The position numbers and the translations under genes were made by a program. Of a stretch of DNA of 64,000 nucleotides, positions 1 through 39,221 are shown piece by piece; position 1 is the stretch's first letter; each line of letters starts with the position of its first letter. Location of the stretch: the NCBI GenBank assembly GCA_021789975.1, contig JAJYIT010000005.1:1-64000 (forward strand), given 5' to 3'. Below the pieces are notes generated by a model. The model was given only the letters and a program-made list of their open reading frames with translations. It searched no databases and was not told where the DNA came from. This DNA comes from Bacteroidota bacterium. Its GTDB lineage: Bacteria > Bacteroidota > Ignavibacteria > Kryptoniales > JAKASW01.

Positions 1-760
1 CGAAAGCACCTGCAATCTGTCTGGGCGTCTGACCCGCTCTAAGGATCTTCAGGAAATTCGTAACAAATTTTATCCAGAACATAACGCCTCCATGAAATGT
101 TCTAACAAGTCAGCACACGTCGGGCCCCTCATTTTCGGGCACGAACATATGGTTTCATTAATATTATCAAAAACTCAATGCGTTTCCAAATACCCCCATC
201 GGAAAGCACCGGCTCACTTTGAAGTATTCCACCATGTTGAACTCGGTTCAACATCTGGTTTTAGACCCCGAAACAAGCCTGACCTGGACCGTATCAGTCC
301 AGGGTTCGGGGTGACGTGTGAATTGAAATTTAGCCACTACTCATCGGAAGTGGCGAGCTCTTTTTGCTAACTGCATCCCTGGATGGGACAACCCACGTAC
401 ATATATAACTCACAAAAAGATATGCTCGCTGATCAGCTTAGCGTAAAAACACCTATCCTTGCTTCAAGCGCTAAGAAATTTGAGAGTGGCACATTACTCG
501 CTGACCCGGCTCTTGTTGCCTTTTGATCCTGACTTGACCATCACTCCCCTCCAGGTTATATTTTTCACGATTTTAATTCAAGGAAGTTGCCCGTCTACCT
601 GTGAGCCCAAACAAGCAATCAGAAAGCTCGATAGCCTTGGCAAGTTCCGTGTGACTGGAATATACCTGCCGGTTATCCGTTCCCGGAACTTCAAAAGAGT
701 GAAGTACCATCTTACCGGAATTTACCTTAATTGTTTTCCCGAATTAAACTAAGAACTGCC
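1..760. other. Gene-free stretch at window start
   Basis: I see no convincing gene here. Two short open frames (92-370 and 459-752, plus strand) have no signal peptide, no recognisable motif and no good ribosome binding site, and I do not regard them as genes. The only structured element is the nested inverted repeat at 236-312, listed separately. The region upstream of 761 must hold the promoter of the TonB receptor, but I found no confident -35/-10 pair. Confidence 0.6.
236..312. repeat. Nested inverted repeats (possible structured RNA or operator)
   Basis: A perfect 7-bp inverted repeat with a 3-nt loop (GTTGAAC/GTTCAAC) lies at 236-252. It is followed by a compound hairpin. The outer arms ACCCCGAA (265-272) and TTCGGGGT (305-312) enclose the inner arms CCTGGAC (283-289) and GTCCAGG (297-303) around a 7-nt loop. 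No T-run follows, so it is not a classic intrinsic terminator. It sits about 450 nt upstream of the TonB receptor start. Function is unknown. Confidence 0.5.
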
Positions 761-3240: not shown

Positions 3241-4557
3241 ATGAGTACGACGAGGACCCACCGTATCTCACGAAAAGTAAAGTATGGATTACTCTTTTCG
3301 TCACTGGTATTACTCTTCCAATCTCCCGAGGCAAGAGCACAATTCGCGAACGGCGCCGACGTAAGCTGGCTTCCTCAGATGGAGGCTGCCGGTTATATAT
3401 TCAGGAATCGGTCTGGAGTAGAAATGAACTGCCTGGAGATTCTGAAAGAGGAAGGGATCAATGCGATCCGCATAAGGGCATGGGTAAATCCAGATAGCGG
3501 CTATTGCGGCACAAGGTATATCACCAACCTGGCTCGTACTGCGGACAGCATGGGTTTTGACATACTTGTTGATTTTCATTGCAGTGATACCTGGGCCGAT
3601 CCTTCACACCAATCTACACCGGCCGCATGGGCGAACGATTCGTTTCCTCAATTGCTTACTGATCTTTACAATTACATCCACGGTGTCATGGATACGCTCA
3701 AACTGGCGGGGGTGATTCCAAAATGGGTGCAGATTGGGAATGAAACAAATAACGGAATGATGTGGCCACTGGGAAATGCTACTACACACATGTCAAACTT
3801 CGCTCACATGATCGACACAGGCTATGCTGCGGTAAAGGCGGTGGATAGTACGACACAGGTGATCGTCCATCTTTCTAACTCTTACGATGATGCATTATAC
3901 AGGTGGATGTTTGACAGCCTGCCAGCATACCATGCCAGGTGGGATATAATCGGGATGTCTGCATATCCATTCTGGGCAAATTTATCCTGGGAGACCGACG
4001 ACAGCCTGACACTTCTGACCATGAAGGACGTGATTACGAGATATCACAAGCAGGTGATGGTTGTTGAGGCCGGATATCAATACGACGAGCCTTTCGAAGC
4101 AAACCACTATCTGCTGGATCTGATTGCAAAGACAAGATCGGTAGGCGGCATGGGTGTGTTTTACTGGGAACCCGAATGTTACAACTGGCAGAACTACGGG
4201 ATGGGAGCGTGGGATCCGGCTACGGAGGAGCCGACAGTTGCACTGGACGCTTTCCTCGGAAAGGAAGCCACTGACATTATAGCAGCATCAACAGTCTCAG
4301 GCTACAGCTTGAACATCTATCCGAATCCGTTCAATCCGAGCACCGTCATCAGCTACCGGCTGTCAACAAACAGCTTCGTCAACCTCAAGGTATATGACGT
4401 TCTAGGCCGTTTGGTAAGGACGCTGGTCGATGCAAATCAACCGAAAGGAAAATATGAAATCAAATTCGATGCGAGCAGCCTGTCGAGCGGAGTGTACTTC
4501 TGTAGGATAATGGCGGGTAGCTACGCTGCAACACGAAAAATCCTCTTGCAGAAATAG
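3241..4557 (+). CDS. Secreted endo-beta-1,4-galactanase (GH53-type) with T9SS sorting domain
   Basis: Predicted arabinogalactan endo-beta-1,4-galactanase, cleaving beta-1,4-galactan side chains of pectin outside the cell. The ATG is preceded directly by AAAGGA. A signal peptide ends near ARAQF (residue 34). The GH53 TIM barrel is recognisable from NGADVSWLPQMEAAGY, from INAIRIRAWVNP, and from VQIGNETNNGMMWP, where E168 is the likely acid/base. E276 in VMVVEAGYQYDEPF is the likely nucleophile. The last ~80 residues are a T9SS type A sorting domain (YPNPFNPSTVISYRL, then SGVYFCRI and KILLQK), so export by the type IX system and surface attachment or release are expected. It is followed 640 bp later by another T9SS glycanase on the same strand. 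The family call rests on motif memory and I am fairly sure of it. Confidence 0.9.
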   Translation: MSTTRTHRISRKVKYGLLFSSLVLLFQSPEARAQFANGADVSWLPQMEAAGYIFRNRSGVEMNCLEILKEEGINAIRIRAWVNPDSGYCGTRYITNLARTADSMGFDILVDFHCSDTWADPSHQSTPAAWANDSFPQLLTDLYNYIHGVMDTLKLAGVIPKWVQIGNETNNGMMWPLGNATTHMSNFAHMIDTGYAAVKAVDSTTQVIVHLSNSYDDALYRWMFDSLPAYHARWDIIGMSAYPFWANLSWETDDSLTLLTMKDVITRYHKQVMVVEAGYQYDEPFEANHYLLDLIAKTRSVGGMGVFYWEPECYNWQNYGMGAWDPATEEPTVALDAFLGKEATDIIAASTVSGYSLNIYPNPFNPSTVISYRLSTNSFVNLKVYDVLGRLVRTLVDANQPKGKYEIKFDASSLSSGVYFCRIMAGSYAATRKILLQK

Positions 4558-5200
4558 TTGCGTGGATTCGGTATCACCCAAATAAGAAGCACGAAATTGT
4601 CCGAAGGGGAGACTGCTTCGCGCCGCTCGGTATGCTTCACCTGCTCCCACTATGTCATCCTTCGGGCAGGCGAGAACATCGATAGCTTCACATCACGGAT
4701 GCCCGATTACGACAACCTGAACTGGAAGAGGCATTCCTTTGGGAGCAACAATCTATCGCTCGGGTATAGTTACCGGCATGGGTTGCGCAGCGGATGGGCG
4801 GAGGCGGACCCTGAACCGTTCAATCAAGAGGAGAAGTGAAGTACCACCGGCTTTGCCGGTGGCTTCTGAGAGGCATCCGTCGAAGACGGACGCCTCGCGA
4901 AAAGCGGTAATCCGCCGTCGGCTGATTTTTGATCTGGACAGTCGTCCATTTCAATGGATGGCTGCTAGATGGCGGGACCCAGCGAAGCTGTCTTCCCATT
5001 ACCACTGCCATATACAGTGGGTTTCTAAGTCGGAACGGGATTGAACAAGTTAGTCCGGGTGTATGAGTGGGCGAAAAGACGTCTGACTCGAAACCGGAAA
5101 GAGAAAGAGCTTGAAGGGTTAAATCCGGCTTTTGCGTAATTTGAACAAGTACATAAGAAAGCTCAACATAAAGACAAGGGATGAGAAGGGTGCCAGGTAA
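4558..5200. other. Intergenic region between the two glycanases
   Basis: There is no credible gene in this 643-bp stretch. Open frames here lack motifs and overlap hairpin-rich DNA. The notable content is a hairpin-bounded element at 4841-5036 related to the IS200-like element at 42.6 kb. The ribosome binding site of the next gene (GAAGGG...AGGT) lies just before 5201. Confidence 0.6.
4841..5036. mobile_element. Short non-autonomous relative of the IS200/IS605-like element (PATE-like)
   Basis: The left end is a perfect hairpin, CCACCGGC-TTT-GCCGGTGG (4844-4862), followed by CTTCTGA. The right end is CCACTG-N7-CAGTGG (5002-5020), followed by GTTTCTAAGTCGGA. Both ends match those of the IS200-like element at 42571-43138, which has CCACCGG-N5-CCGGTGG with CTTCTGA and CCACTGCC-TTA-GGCAGTGG with GTTTCTACGTCGGA. 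Homology at the right end extends inward through GCGAAGC. There is no transposase. The interior instead holds further hairpins: GAGGC-TCCGTC/GACGGA-GCCTC around 4869-4894, a GCGG-TAAT-CCGC stem near 4903-4914, and an imperfect stem around 4938-4965. It fits a palindrome-associated element mobilised in trans by a TnpA. Confidence 0.72.
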
Positions 5201-6763
5201 ATGATTAAGCACATATCGATTGCTGCAATCTTCATTCTCGGGATAACCGTCAGTTCGGAAGCACAGCTTACTGCCCAGCAGGCCGTCGACGGGATGGCGC
5301 GAGGAATCAATATCGGAAATTCCCTGGATGCTTATCCAAATGAAACATCGTGGGGAAATCCTCCTATCATGGAAAGCTATCTTGCCAATCTCAAGAAGGA
5401 AGGTTTCGACGCGGTCAGGATTCCAATTACCTGGAATAATCACACGATGTATACACCTCCATACACGATCGACACCACTTTCATGGCACGCGTAGACTCC
5501 GTGGTGCACTGGGCGCTTGAGAACGGGCTGTTCGTAATAATAGATGCACACCATGAAACATGGCTGAAGGAATCACTTGCCGGCACGTCAGTCACTCTCG
5601 CCGACGGAGATTCAATCGCCCGATTCGATAGTATCTGGAGTCAGATCGCCACTCATTTCAAGGACGCATCCGATAGTCTAATATTCGAAATCTTGAACGA
5701 ACCGGACCCGATGACGCAGTCGAACGTAAATGCCTTGAACGTGCGTGAGCTGAAGATAATACGAAAGACTGATCCCACTCGCGTTGTCTCATATTCCGGA
5801 TATATGTGGTCGAACTCGGATCAGCTCGTTACCGCGGAAATCCCCGATTCAAGTTCGAAGTATCTTATCGGCTATTACCATTCATACGATCCGTATCCGT
5901 TCGGTCTCAAAGGGGGCGACACTACCGATGCGGCGATCTTATCTGCGGTAAATGGAAAGCTGGATCAGGTCACTGCCTGGTCGAAGAAAACACACATCCC
6001 GGTTATTCTGGATGAATTCGGGTTTATGAACAAGTGCATTTACAACACTCGGATGTACGCCTACGCTACGGTAATTGATCAGGCACTTCAACACGGAGTA
6101 CCGGCATTTGCATGGGACGACGGCGGAGATTTCGCCATTTACAACAGAAAGGCGGGTACATTCAACGAAATAGAGGATATACTAATCCACACCTATCCTC
6201 AATCGCCGGACGGGTTGAAGATAATTCAGATAACTCCGACATCGGTAGAACTCCAATGGCACAACCGGAATGCGGAGAGCGACAGCATAACCGTTGAGCG
6301 AAGTGTTGCCACTGATCTGGATTTCAACAGGTACGCCGTGGTCCCCCCGAACGATTCAATCCTCATCGACAATTCAATCTCAGGGGCGAATACATACTAT
6401 TATCGCTTGAAAATAATGATGAAGGATTCGACGGAGCTTCAATCTTATCCGATCATGGTTAATGCAACTCTGACAGGCATTCAATCTATGTCCCCTCTAA
6501 CGCAATTCGAGCTTTCGCAAAATTATCCAAACCCGTTTAACCCGAGCACAGTCATCGGCTATCAGCTATCAGCTAAGAGCTCTGTTACTCTCAAGGTATA
6601 TGATGTCCTTGGCAGGTTGGTAAAAACCTTGGTCGATGCAAATGAATCGATGGGAAACCATGAAGTCACGTTCAATGCAGGCAGCCTTCCGAGCGGCGTA
6701 TACTTTTGCAGGCTGCAGGCAGGGCGCTACAGCAAGACACGGAAGCTCTTGCTTCTGAAATAG
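5201..6763 (+). CDS. Secreted endoglucanase (GH5-type cellulase) with T9SS sorting domain
   Basis: Predicted endo-beta-1,4-glucanase or related GH5 glycanase acting outside the cell. A signal peptide (MIKHISIAAIFILGITVSSEA) precedes the TIM barrel. Barrel motifs are MARGINIGNSLDAY, FDAVRIPITW, VIIDAHHETW, EILNEPDP with E167 as acid/base, and VILDEFGFMN with E272 as nucleophile; AFAWDDGG near the end of the barrel is also typical. A fibronectin-like linker follows (about residues 340-420), then a T9SS type A sorting domain (NYPNPFNPSTVIGYQL, SGVYFCRL, KLLLLK). The upstream GH53 gene has the same architecture, so the pair probably serves plant cell-wall glycan breakdown. Exact specificity among glucan, xyloglucan and mannan cannot be told from sequence. 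Confidence 0.9.
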   Translation: MIKHISIAAIFILGITVSSEAQLTAQQAVDGMARGINIGNSLDAYPNETSWGNPPIMESYLANLKKEGFDAVRIPITWNNHTMYTPPYTIDTTFMARVDSVVHWALENGLFVIIDAHHETWLKESLAGTSVTLADGDSIARFDSIWSQIATHFKDASDSLIFEILNEPDPMTQSNVNALNVRELKIIRKTDPTRVVSYSGYMWSNSDQLVTAEIPDSSSKYLIGYYHSYDPYPFGLKGGDTTDAAILSAVNGKLDQVTAWSKKTHIPVILDEFGFMNKCIYNTRMYAYATVIDQALQHGVPAFAWDDGGDFAIYNRKAGTFNEIEDILIHTYPQSPDGLKIIQITPTSVELQWHNRNAESDSITVERSVATDLDFNRYAVVPPNDSILIDNSISGANTYYYRLKIMMKDSTELQSYPIMVNATLTGIQSMSPLTQFELSQNYPNPFNPSTVIGYQLSAKSSVTLKVYDVLGRLVKTLVDANESMGNHEVTFNAGSLPSGVYFCRLQAGRYSKTRKLLLLK

Positions 6764-6881: not shown

Positions 6882-7883
6882 TCACGGTGATATTCTGACT
6901 ATGCCGTTACCGGTTCCGGCCAGGAGCGTCGGTCCGTCAGATACAAGAGAACCAACAGACAGCGAGTCGAGTACTGTCCAGCTTGCTCCATAATCCGTTG
7001 ACCGGAAAATACAGGTATTCGATCCAGCAAAGAGAACCGAACCATCGGCATAGAGGAAGTTGATCATGTGGTTCGTCAAACCTGCATAGGCGGGTTGCCA
7101 GCTTGATCCGTTGTTCACCGATATAAAAACCCCTCCTGTGGAGTCATCAGAAAATGATGCGGCGAAAACAACCGTTCCGATAGATGCCAGTCCAAAAACT
7201 CCAACGTTGTTCAATCCATTATCAGCTTGCGCCCAATCCATGCCGTAGTCAGAAGATTCAAGAATTCCTTCACCTGGAGTGCCGGCAAAAAGCTCTGAGC
7301 CAACTGCCATTAATGTCCAGACCTGCGGGGCATGTCCGTAAGTGGTTTCGGAACTGGAAAACAGAGGCCCGTTGTTTACCGGCTCCCAACTCGTTCCGTA
7401 GTCTGTGGACAAATAGACTCCGTTGTTCGTTCCTGCAAAGACATTATTTCCGATTGAGGTGAAATCACTTACGTTCTGGTCAAAGCTCGAATCTTTCTCT
7501 TCCCAGGTAAGGCCGTTGTCGGCAGAGACATCGATGCTTCCCTCAAGTGCATTCGCCCCGGCAAAAATGTACGACCCGCTGTTGTAGAGCGTGACTCTGG
7601 TATCAATAGAAAAGTTTGCGCCCGGAACGCTGTTAACCGAATGAAGAGTGTCAACCGGTCTCCAGGTCAATCCATCGTCAGTAGAAAGAAAAACCGCACC
7701 TCCGACTGTACCCGCAACCAAGTTGTTTCCGCTGATACAAATGCTGGGTACAGAATAGTCTTTCAGACCGATGTTCGACATTCCAGGATTAGAAACCCCT
7801 TCAGGATTTCCCTCGTTCTGACAGGGTGGCAGAAAGAGGGTAAGAGAGGCTAAACCGACGCAAACAAATATCCTATTTATCAT
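6882..7883 (-). CDS. BNR/Asp-box beta-propeller lipoprotein
   Basis: A secreted or periplasmic beta-propeller protein of 333 aa. The N-terminus (MINRIFVCVGLASLTLFLPPC) resembles a lipoprotein signal, with C21 as possible lipidation site. At least six Asp-box (BNR) repeats are visible: STDDGLTW, SADNGLTW, STDYGTSW, SSDYGMDW, SVNNGSSW and STDYGASW. Each follows a 'VFAGT'-type strand. Such repeats build six- or seven-bladed propellers in sialidase-like and photosynthesis-type YCF48-like proteins. No catalytic sialidase residues can be assigned, so binding or structural roles are as likely as enzymatic ones. It is transcribed towards the GH5 gene and lacks a sorting domain. A GGAG lies 11 nt upstream of the ATG. 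Confidence 0.8.
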   Translation of the reverse strand: MINRIFVCVGLASLTLFLPPCQNEGNPEGVSNPGMSNIGLKDYSVPSICISGNNLVAGTVGGAVFLSTDDGLTWRPVDTLHSVNSVPGANFSIDTRVTLYNSGSYIFAGANALEGSIDVSADNGLTWEEKDSSFDQNVSDFTSIGNNVFAGTNNGVYLSTDYGTSWEPVNNGPLFSSSETTYGHAPQVWTLMAVGSELFAGTPGEGILESSDYGMDWAQADNGLNNVGVFGLASIGTVVFAASFSDDSTGGVFISVNNGSSWQPAYAGLTNHMINFLYADGSVLFAGSNTCIFRSTDYGASWTVLDSLSVGSLVSDGPTLLAGTGNGIVRISP

Positions 7884-8020: not shown

Positions 8021-8586
8021 TCATCGTCTGATACATGAATTGTAGCAGTAACCCAATCCCAGTGTCGAGTCGCATCCACAGTAGTCATCCTAATAAGTGC
8101 CGTTGTCGGGATCCATCCACTGCACGATGTATGCGCTGTCTATCTCTGAAGACGGAAGACTGCCAGGAGTTCCTTTGTAAATCAGTCTCACTTGTTCAAA
8201 GTAGGTGTCGTTGAGAGCACCGATCGTGTCGTAATCCCAAAGAGCCATTTGCTCTTCGATTCCAATAGGAGGCGATCCAAGGAGCGTATTTGAAGAGTTC
8301 GAGAGATCGTTGCAAACGAACCAGATCGTCTGAGCCGCACCAGGGATCCCGGGTATATCATGCGGGTTCGCGTAGTCAAATGTGTCGGTAGATTCGTTAT
8401 GCAGGACTATACCACTGGAGTCTGCGTACCATGGTGCGCCCTCATCCGCCGGCCAATCCTCCCAATCAGCAACATATTGCTGCCGGAGTTGATCGATTTC
8501 ATTAATGGTCACCTGGCTGACCGGTACTTGAAAATAGCAGGATGCATCGACTTTCAGATCAGGGACTGAACTCTCAGGCTGATTCG
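8021..8586 (-). pseudogene. 3' remnant of a secreted protein gene, with in-frame stop
   Basis: Read on the minus strand from 8586, the frame encodes a clearly protein-like segment (YPNQPESSVPDLKVDASCYF, then a run ending DSAYIVQWMDPDNGTY). A TAG stops it at 8092-8090, but the same frame continues with DDYCGCDSTLGLGYCYN before a TGA at 8023-8021. Cys/Asp-rich segments of this type (DPD..., DD..GCD.TL.LGY.YN) occur in large secreted proteins of T9SS bacteria, to my recollection. The 5' part of the gene is missing: the frame runs straight into the 319-bp duplicated oxidoreductase fragment at 8587. It is therefore truncated and interrupted. The original may have been the gene whose start survives at 9017-8906, but the two halves could also be from different genes. 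Confidence 0.6.
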
Positions 8587-8905
8587 GATACGCGCCGGCG
8601 CTATCGGGCGCATTACTATGATTCAGGAATTTGCACTCCAACCAAATGCGCTGGAGTCTTATCCTAAGTGGCAACAGCTGCCTGAGAATCTAGGGATATT
8701 TTTTGGCTATGGCATCCACAACATCGACAGACTGCGGTGGTTTCTTGGCGAGGAAGCGGAGAGTGTATCCGCGGAGATAACGAAGTCTTCCTCCGGAATT
8801 GAGATCTCCACCATGGCAGTGATAAGATGGCACAACAATGCAATGAGTTCAATATGGAGCAGTGGCGATCTTAAGACACCTGGCTTCCCTACAACCGCAT
8901 TCCGC
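8587..8905 (+). repeat. Perfect 319-bp copy of an internal piece of the oxidoreductase gene at 38.2-39.2 kb
   Basis: By direct comparison, 8587-8905 is identical to 38603-38921, with the same orientation and a constant offset of 30,016. The match begins at GATACGCGCC and ends at CATTCCGC; flanking bases then differ at once on both sides. It encodes, in plus orientation, the middle of a Gfo/Idh/MocA-type oxidoreductase (roughly residues 136-241 of the 340-aa protein). It contains no start or stop of that gene. No inverted or target-site repeats bound it. It is either a recent ectopic copy or an assembly artefact. Confidence 0.95.
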
Positions 8906-9017
8906 GCGACTTGTCATAGACGTAGCCGCTTATAGTGGACGTCTTTTCCCCCTGCGAAAATGCCGGCGCGATGAATACAGAAATACATAACAGTGTCGTA
9001 ACAGACTTTGTTGTCAC
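8906..9017 (-). pseudogene. 5' remnant of a secreted/TonB-receptor-like gene cut by the duplication
   Basis: On the minus strand a GTG at 9017-9015 opens a frame that reads as a signal peptide (TTKSVTTLLCISVFIAPAFS) and then QGEKTSTISGYVYDKS. This is the start of a carboxypeptidase-regulatory-like domain as found at the N-terminus of TonB-dependent receptors. The frame is lost abruptly at 8906, where the duplicated oxidoreductase fragment begins. About 37 codons remain. Either the rest of a receptor gene was deleted, or the gene once continued into the remnant at 8586-8021. The start codon choice is tentative: an in-frame TAG lies upstream and no ATG is available. Confidence 0.55.
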
Positions 9018-9903
9018 GTAAATCTCGTCGAATTTTGTTGACGTACCAAGATTTTCGTTCTTCTACAGAGATGTGGTAAGATTCAGTACGCGATCCCCTT
9101 CTGAAAGATAAACACTCTTTTCCGTGATTGATTGCTTCCTGTTTGATTCATCGTGCACAGCATCATGAAGTTAATGCTACAATGAAGATAAAAAAATGAG
9201 ATTCGGTTGACGCGGGCAGGAAAGTTAGGGAGATTAAGGCAACCAAGAAAAATCTGGAATAAAGACATCTTCGGAAAGTGGTCGCAACTTTTGTTTCCCG
9301 GACTCGACGACTTAACTTACCTCGAAATGTGAGTCCGGCTTATCAAGTTCTCTTTTTCAGCCGATGCGTTTGGCCGACATTGCAAATCGGACCGTACCGT
9401 TCAATTGAAGGACCATCTTACGAGAAACTTCATCGACCCGCCCATTAACTCAGTTCCACCTCGCATAAAGTCAGACAATCTTGATGGTCGATTATAGCCC
9501 CATTCTTCAAGGAGCAAAGCCGACAGTTGCATTTCACGCACGACGTTCGGCGTTTCTCAGGCAAACCGTGCTTCAGTGCCCGTTGAAGCCCGCCTTTCAC
9601 TATTTAAACGCCGCGTTATGTTTGAAGATTACTGCATTCGGGACCCTCTGTCGAGAGGAACATGACCAAAACTGTCGAATAAGGGACGCCGCCTTCTCGT
9701 TTCTTTAATGGAACGGCAGGCTCTCCGGTTCTTCCGGTTCCGAAAAAACTGTACGTTTGTTCAGTTGTTCCTGCGCCTGCCGCGCGTAACTTGGCCGCGA
9801 GTCAGGAAGCGAATATCATTTCCATCTCGGAGACGGCTCTGTCCGCCGTACGCTGCACATCGTGGTGCGGTCTCGGTTATTAAAGCAAATTGAAGGAGTG
9901 AGA
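9018..9903. other. Gene-free stretch
   Basis: Nearly 900 bp without a supportable gene. Short open frames (9083-9268 minus, 9481-9708 plus) have no family features. The final 20 bp hold the ribosome binding site GAAGGAG of the next gene. A GCGTTATG-like motif near 9615 recalls an integron attC end, but no matching partner was found. Confidence 0.5.
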
Positions 9904-38198: not shown

Positions 38199-39221
38199 AT
38201 GACTCCAATCAGGATCGGCATAATAGGTTCCGGGTTCATCGCTCGCACTCATGCGGTCTCCATAAAGAGATATCTGAAGGGAGCGGTGCTGGCAGGAGTA
38301 TCCGGAGGCAAGAGAGCTGCGACTCTCGCTGCAGAATTTGGCGTGACGAACTTCCCTTCAGTCGAACATCTGGCGGCAGACAAGGATATCGACGCCGTAA
38401 TCATCACATCACCTCACTCAATTCACTTCACGCACGCCCTGATTTGCGCTGAGGCTGGCAAACATGTACTTGTCGAAAAGCCGATGGCAACAACTGTGGA
38501 CCAATGTGAGTCAACCGAGAATGCGTTTAGTTCGCGCAAACTCGTGCTCATGGTCGCTTTCACTCAAAGATACAGAGAAGCCAACCGAAGAGCATTTGAA
38601 CTGATACGCGCCGGCGCTATCGGGCGCATTACTATGATTCAGGAATTTGCACTCCAACCAAATGCGCTGGAGTCTTATCCTAAGTGGCAACAGCTGCCTG
38701 AGAATCTAGGGATATTTTTTGGCTATGGCATCCACAACATCGACAGACTGCGGTGGTTTCTTGGCGAGGAAGCGGAGAGTGTATCCGCGGAGATAACGAA
38801 GTCTTCCTCCGGAATTGAGATCTCCACCATGGCAGTGATAAGATGGCACAACAATGCAATGAGTTCAATATGGAGCAGTGGCGATCTTAAGACACCTGGC
38901 TTCCCTACAACCGCATTCCGCTCGCTGGTTATAGGTGAAAAAGGGATGCTGGACGTTGACGGATACGGCGCTCTACGAATGAGCGTCGACTCAAAACCGT
39001 GGGAGACATTATTTCAGCAGCCGCCGATAGACTGGCGGGGCGAAGGGATGTTCGCTGAGATCAGGATGGGATCGTTCAACGCGCAGGACCAGGAATTTGT
39101 AAACTCCATTTTGGAAGGCCGCAAACCGGCGATCACCGGCGAGGACGGACGAAAGTCAGTGGCCATTGCTCTCGCAGCCTACCAGGCGGCAGCGGAACAC
39201 AAAGTGATTCAACTTAAATAA
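38199..39221 (+). CDS. Gfo/Idh/MocA-family oxidoreductase (source of the duplicated segment)
   Basis: A 340-aa NAD(P)-dependent oxidoreductase. The Rossmann domain starts IRIGIIGSGFIARTHA; the EKP motif is HVLVEKPMATT; the substrate domain has FTQRYREANRRAFEL and FFGYGIHNIDRLRWFLGE, with the catalytic His in GIHNID. The middle of the gene (38603-38921) is present as an exact second copy at 8587-8905. The gene itself is intact and in frame, 39 bp after the IclR stop and 16 bp before the symporter. Together with the paralog at 31496-32512 the locus encodes two such enzymes, suggesting a double oxidation, or oxidation and reduction with epimerisation, of a cyclic polyol or sugar acid. Confidence 0.93.
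   Translation: MTPIRIGIIGSGFIARTHAVSIKRYLKGAVLAGVSGGKRAATLAAEFGVTNFPSVEHLAADKDIDAVIITSPHSIHFTHALICAEAGKHVLVEKPMATTVDQCESTENAFSSRKLVLMVAFTQRYREANRRAFELIRAGAIGRITMIQEFALQPNALESYPKWQQLPENLGIFFGYGIHNIDRLRWFLGEEAESVSAEITKSSSGIEISTMAVIRWHNNAMSSIWSSGDLKTPGFPTTAFRSLVIGEKGMLDVDGYGALRMSVDSKPWETLFQQPPIDWRGEGMFAEIRMGSFNAQDQEFVNSILEGRKPAITGEDGRKSVAIALAAYQAAAEHKVIQLK
38603..38921 (+). repeat. Second copy of the 319-bp perfect repeat (inside the oxidoreductase gene)
   Basis: Identical over its full length to 8587-8905. Here the sequence is in its natural context, reading through codons ~136-241 of the intact oxidoreductase, so this is the donor copy and the one at 8.6 kb is the derived copy. Confidence 0.95.

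Follow-up and report, generated by a model that had tools for sequence, protein, structure and literature searches.

In Acinetobacter baylyi, short-patch double illegitimate recombination replaces chromosomal DNA with a short non-homologous patch that is joined by microhomology at both ends; these patches fall far short of 319 bp in length. At the amplification junctions of the E. coli lac system, Hastings and colleagues describe microhomology of 2–15 bp, and they name sequence stretches from elsewhere at a junction as the mark that separates MMBIR from end joining (PMC2621351). For the insertions of numts in primates, Ku-dependent NHEJ has been invoked, and no deletion accompanies more than half of them (PMC2567098). 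The locus described here, in a natural uncultured bacterium, carries a 319-bp tract copied from a gene located ~30 kb away and set between two truncated genes.

The window (the whole stretch of 64,000 nucleotides that was analyzed) contains at positions 8587–8905, on the plus strand, an exact copy (R') of the middle of a Gfo/Idh/MocA gene, corresponding to source codons from about 136 to 241. Base-by-base comparison within the window revealed that 319 of 319 bases are identical to those at 38603–38921 (source tract R, plus strand), in the same orientation. The first base beyond the two tracts differs at both edges, with zero matching bases outside the 319, and the identity between the flanks of R' and those of R is ~25%, which equals the chance expectation. 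The perfect identity, sharp ends and common orientation reported in the initial annotation were thus confirmed, and the same is true of the missing start and stop codons, as R' at 8.6 kb is a bare gene interior. Once the 4-bp microhomology at each edge (see below) is set aside, the unambiguous copied tract is 8591–8901. Neither tRNA genes nor Rfam elements were found at the patch site, a search for the patch locus in plasmids gave no match, and nothing points to a function of the patch.

R' and R are the only exact repeat of at least 30 bp in the window and, genome-wide (4.7 Mb, 85 contigs), the only two copies of this sequence, both located on one 185-kb contig. In a screen for repeats of at least 90% identity, which covered a 495-kb sample of the 4.7-Mb genome, the next-longest repeats were 137 and 131 bp in length (93% identity each), and no other repeat in that sample reached 140 bp. 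The 137-bp repeat joins window positions 204–340 to positions 118255–118391 of contig C83, where it is found just downstream of an integrase-like gene (116761–117792, recognized by eye), and the segment at 116392–116522 of C83 is repeated at 89289–89419. Both of these repeats may mark the ends of an integrated element or be relics of one. A mobile-element origin of the patch itself was considered and rejected, since the near-identical short repeats on the contig adjoin the integrase-like gene, lie far from the site and exclude the patch.

The source gene (38199–39221, plus strand) is intact and encodes a Gfo/Idh/MocA oxidoreductase of 340 aa. It is accompanied by genes for an IclR regulator, a sodium:solute symporter and an amidohydrolase, and the region, including R, is syntenic in two relatives, whose proteins share 84% and 81% aa identity with that of the source gene. 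In comparison with relatives, second codon positions are 92–95% identical and third positions 54–58%; judging from this excess of divergence at third positions, the gene is under purifying selection. Since the source gene is both conserved and syntenic, the direction of copying was from 38.6 kb to 8.6 kb. The absence of differences between R' and R (0/319) gives, by the rule of three, a 95% upper bound of ~0.9% divergence, whereas the source gene and its nearest relative differ at ~42% of third codon positions. On a genus-level scale, the patch is thus of recent origin.

To the left of the patch lies fragment A (8036–8586, minus strand), an internal stretch of ~183 codons with an in-frame TAG near 8090. 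It matches the interior (about residues 140–325) of secreted proteins of ~1,100–1,350 aa, with 55–64% aa identity, and the homology stops within one codon of 8587, at the edge of the patch. At the other end of the fragment, at ~8036, the homology stops abruptly as well. This left end (window 8036–8040) adjoins the promoter of a BNR-repeat gene (6882–7883) and suggests a second deletion junction, one that has no recognizable patch. Further to the left, window positions 3241–6763 hold adjacent GH53 and GH5 glycosidase genes with type IX secretion tails, a pair that suggests a plant-polysaccharide-degrading member of Bacteroidota or a near relative.

To the right of the patch, fragment B (8906–9143, minus strand) comprises the promoter region, the signal peptide and the first ~40 codons of a protein that was named a TonB-dependent receptor after visual identification of carboxypeptidase-like and plug motifs. 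Fragment B shares 81% nt identity with a sequence from one of the relatives (G005:C56:1327–1568), in which the frame runs on for at least 480 codons; the version found in the window ends exactly at the copy, and the homology ends at 8902–8906. The next ~720 bp (window 9144–9861), up to the gene for a secreted protein at 9862, contain no convincing gene and have no match to any relative; this segment may hold further remnants.

Fragments A and B are both found on the minus strand, both are cut exactly at the patch and, read 5' to 3', the receptor precedes the secreted protein. Receptor and secreted-protein genes were observed in this order and orientation in clusters of this genome (contig C9) and of a relative (G002:C32), in which ~7.5–10 kb lie between the start of the receptor gene and the corresponding part of the secreted-protein gene that follows. 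Since both flanking genes are cut exactly at the copy, the simplest reading is that the patch bridges the ends of a multi-kb deletion; its size, as well as the former membership of A and B in one cluster, we infer from homologues. The missing bodies of genes A and B were not found elsewhere in the assembly, which is 98.4% complete, and the paralogues that this genome does contain are full-length genes with clear divergence. Neither A nor B has an identical copy elsewhere in the genome, for which reason we rejected the idea that they, too, are filler DNA taken from other parts of it. The nearest homologues of fragment B (on G005:C56 and on contig C74 of this genome) are not located beside an A-type gene in the sequence seen, and A and B may therefore never have stood in one cluster. 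The stop codon in fragment A and its second abrupt end, at 8036, may also mean that the locus was already decaying when the patch was laid down. The 12 other genomes of the family were searched for a syntenic locus, and none could be aligned across the patch; the many matches of the flanking proteins, which are members of large families, were uninformative here.

According to the initial annotation, the copy has no flanking repeats. This holds for the present sequence, but homologues of the lost target imply a short microhomology at either junction. At the left junction, the source reads GCGTATCAG, and the tetranucleotide GATA (8587–8590; TATC on the minus strand) is common to the source and to three of the five aligned homologues of fragment A, in which it occurs within TATCCG. 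At the right junction, at least CCGC (8902–8905) is shared, as judged from CCGCTCGACTTG in the G005 homologue of fragment B, CCGCTCGCTGG in the source and CCGCGCGACTTG in the product. Thus, the source and the lost target would have had 4 bp in common at each junction, the pre-event sequence being deduced from homologues that are 66–81% identical. Among simulated random junctions in the window, a microhomology of at least 4 bp arises by chance with a frequency of 0.017 per junction (1.7%), and for both junctions jointly the value is ~3 × 10−4, given the ancestral target deduced as above.

Taken together, the locus is probably best explained by a deletion of recent date and its repair through template switching primed by microhomology (MMBIR/FoSTeS-like), and not through Ku-dependent end joining. 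According to this explanation, the minus-strand cluster of receptor and secreted-protein genes would have been broken, with the loss of several kb, and a 3' end would have paired over ~4 bp with a stretch of the Gfo/Idh/MocA gene that was exposed as single-stranded DNA. From this gene, which is situated ~30 kb away and is unrelated to the target, a polymerase would then have copied ~311–319 bp, and the extended end would have returned to the opposite side of the lesion, again by pairing over ~4 bp. The tract would thus have been copied rather than ligated, and deletion and insertion would represent one event. The locus shows marks known from such events, namely sequence from elsewhere at a rearrangement junction (the 319-bp copy from 38.6 kb between the truncated genes) and, with GATA and CCGC in the deduced target, microhomology at each junction that falls within the range of about 2–15 bp. 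Ku (PF02735) was not found in this genome (98.4% complete) or in 13 relatives by a search that was positive in the B. subtilis control, and Ku-dependent (Ku/LigD) end joining is therefore disfavored. The suggestion in the initial annotation that filler DNA from a distant locus was placed at a break is supported, and it is strengthened by flanks that are gene remnants cut exactly at the copy and by the putative microhomology at both junctions.

The same end product, i.e., an exact copy with microhomology at both ends and a deletion of the target, would also be expected if microhomology-mediated alternative end joining, which likewise does not need Ku, had captured a free fragment of ~319 bp at the break. 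Such a fragment might have been left by nucleases degrading a sister chromosome, or it might have entered the cell as DNA of a dead sibling. As far as the sequence goes, nothing separates fragment capture from template switching; we consider the former rather unlikely, as it is somewhat less economical, with two independent end-to-fragment joinings at 4 bp each. Less probable still is an artefact of library or assembly, in which the patch would have been placed between the two fragments by chimeric molecules or by an incorrect path in the metagenome assembly. The genome is a draft of 85 contigs, very likely a metagenome bin judging from its relatives, template switching during library PCR also uses short homologies, and 319 bp is close to the usual length of library fragments. 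However, graph-based assemblers join sequences at shared k-mers of at least 20 bp, while the overlap here is only ~4 bp, and reads crossing both junctions must therefore have existed. Moreover, a wrong path through a repeat would break the source gene, which is intact and syntenic, and the artefact would need two independent chimeras together with the loss of several kb, the lost parts of which are nowhere else in the assembly. With no overlap of k-mer length at either junction and the missing gene bodies not present elsewhere in the assembly, the chimeric assembly join raised in the initial annotation is judged unlikely.

Two further proposals made at that stage fared worse. Ongoing gene conversion could have prevented an older insertion from diverging from its source; the perfect 319-bp identity is compatible with this, and recombination is possible between direct repeats at a distance of 30 kb. 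Conversion tracts are, however, expected to leave diverged edges, whereas the identity observed here reaches the last base at both ends, and no observation requires this process; we regard it as highly unlikely. The least probable of all is a retro-copy, i.e., an mRNA fragment of the source gene that was reverse-transcribed and captured at the break. Only a part of one gene was copied, as such an origin would have it, but instead of an active reverse transcriptase the genome has a single RVT_1 match, a partial remnant (positions 96–203 of 205) with three stop codons, which makes this origin extremely improbable.

As a probable natural case of deletion repair with a templated patch, in an uncultured bacterium with no detectable Ku, the locus is unusually clean: the source of the patch, the direction of copying and the microhomologies can all be read. 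The finding alone leaves the knowledge of repair unchanged, the event being of a known kind. As a direct repeat of 319 bp, R' and R flank ~30 kb (window 8906–38921), and homologous recombination between them could delete that segment. It is conceivable, though quite improbable, that bacteria of this lineage, for which the Ku search was negative, regularly heal breaks with patches of a few hundred bases copied from distant genes; if so, their decaying loci would keep a readable trail of templated insertions.

Among the papers searched, there was no direct precedent for bacterial templated insertions of ~319 bp. The patch resembles the numt insertions (PMC2567098), which also close a break with a piece of another locus and have microhomology at some of their fusion points, but it differs from them in that Ku was not found and in that a multi-kb deletion appears to have taken place. 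The short patch with microhomology at both ends recalls the double illegitimate recombination of A. baylyi. With MMBIR/FoSTeS events, the locus shares an insert from elsewhere at a putative deletion junction and short putative microhomology at both switches, the jump being ~30 kb here; unlike them, the case in hand is an isolated short patch with no amplification, deduced from one genome of a natural uncultured bacterium.
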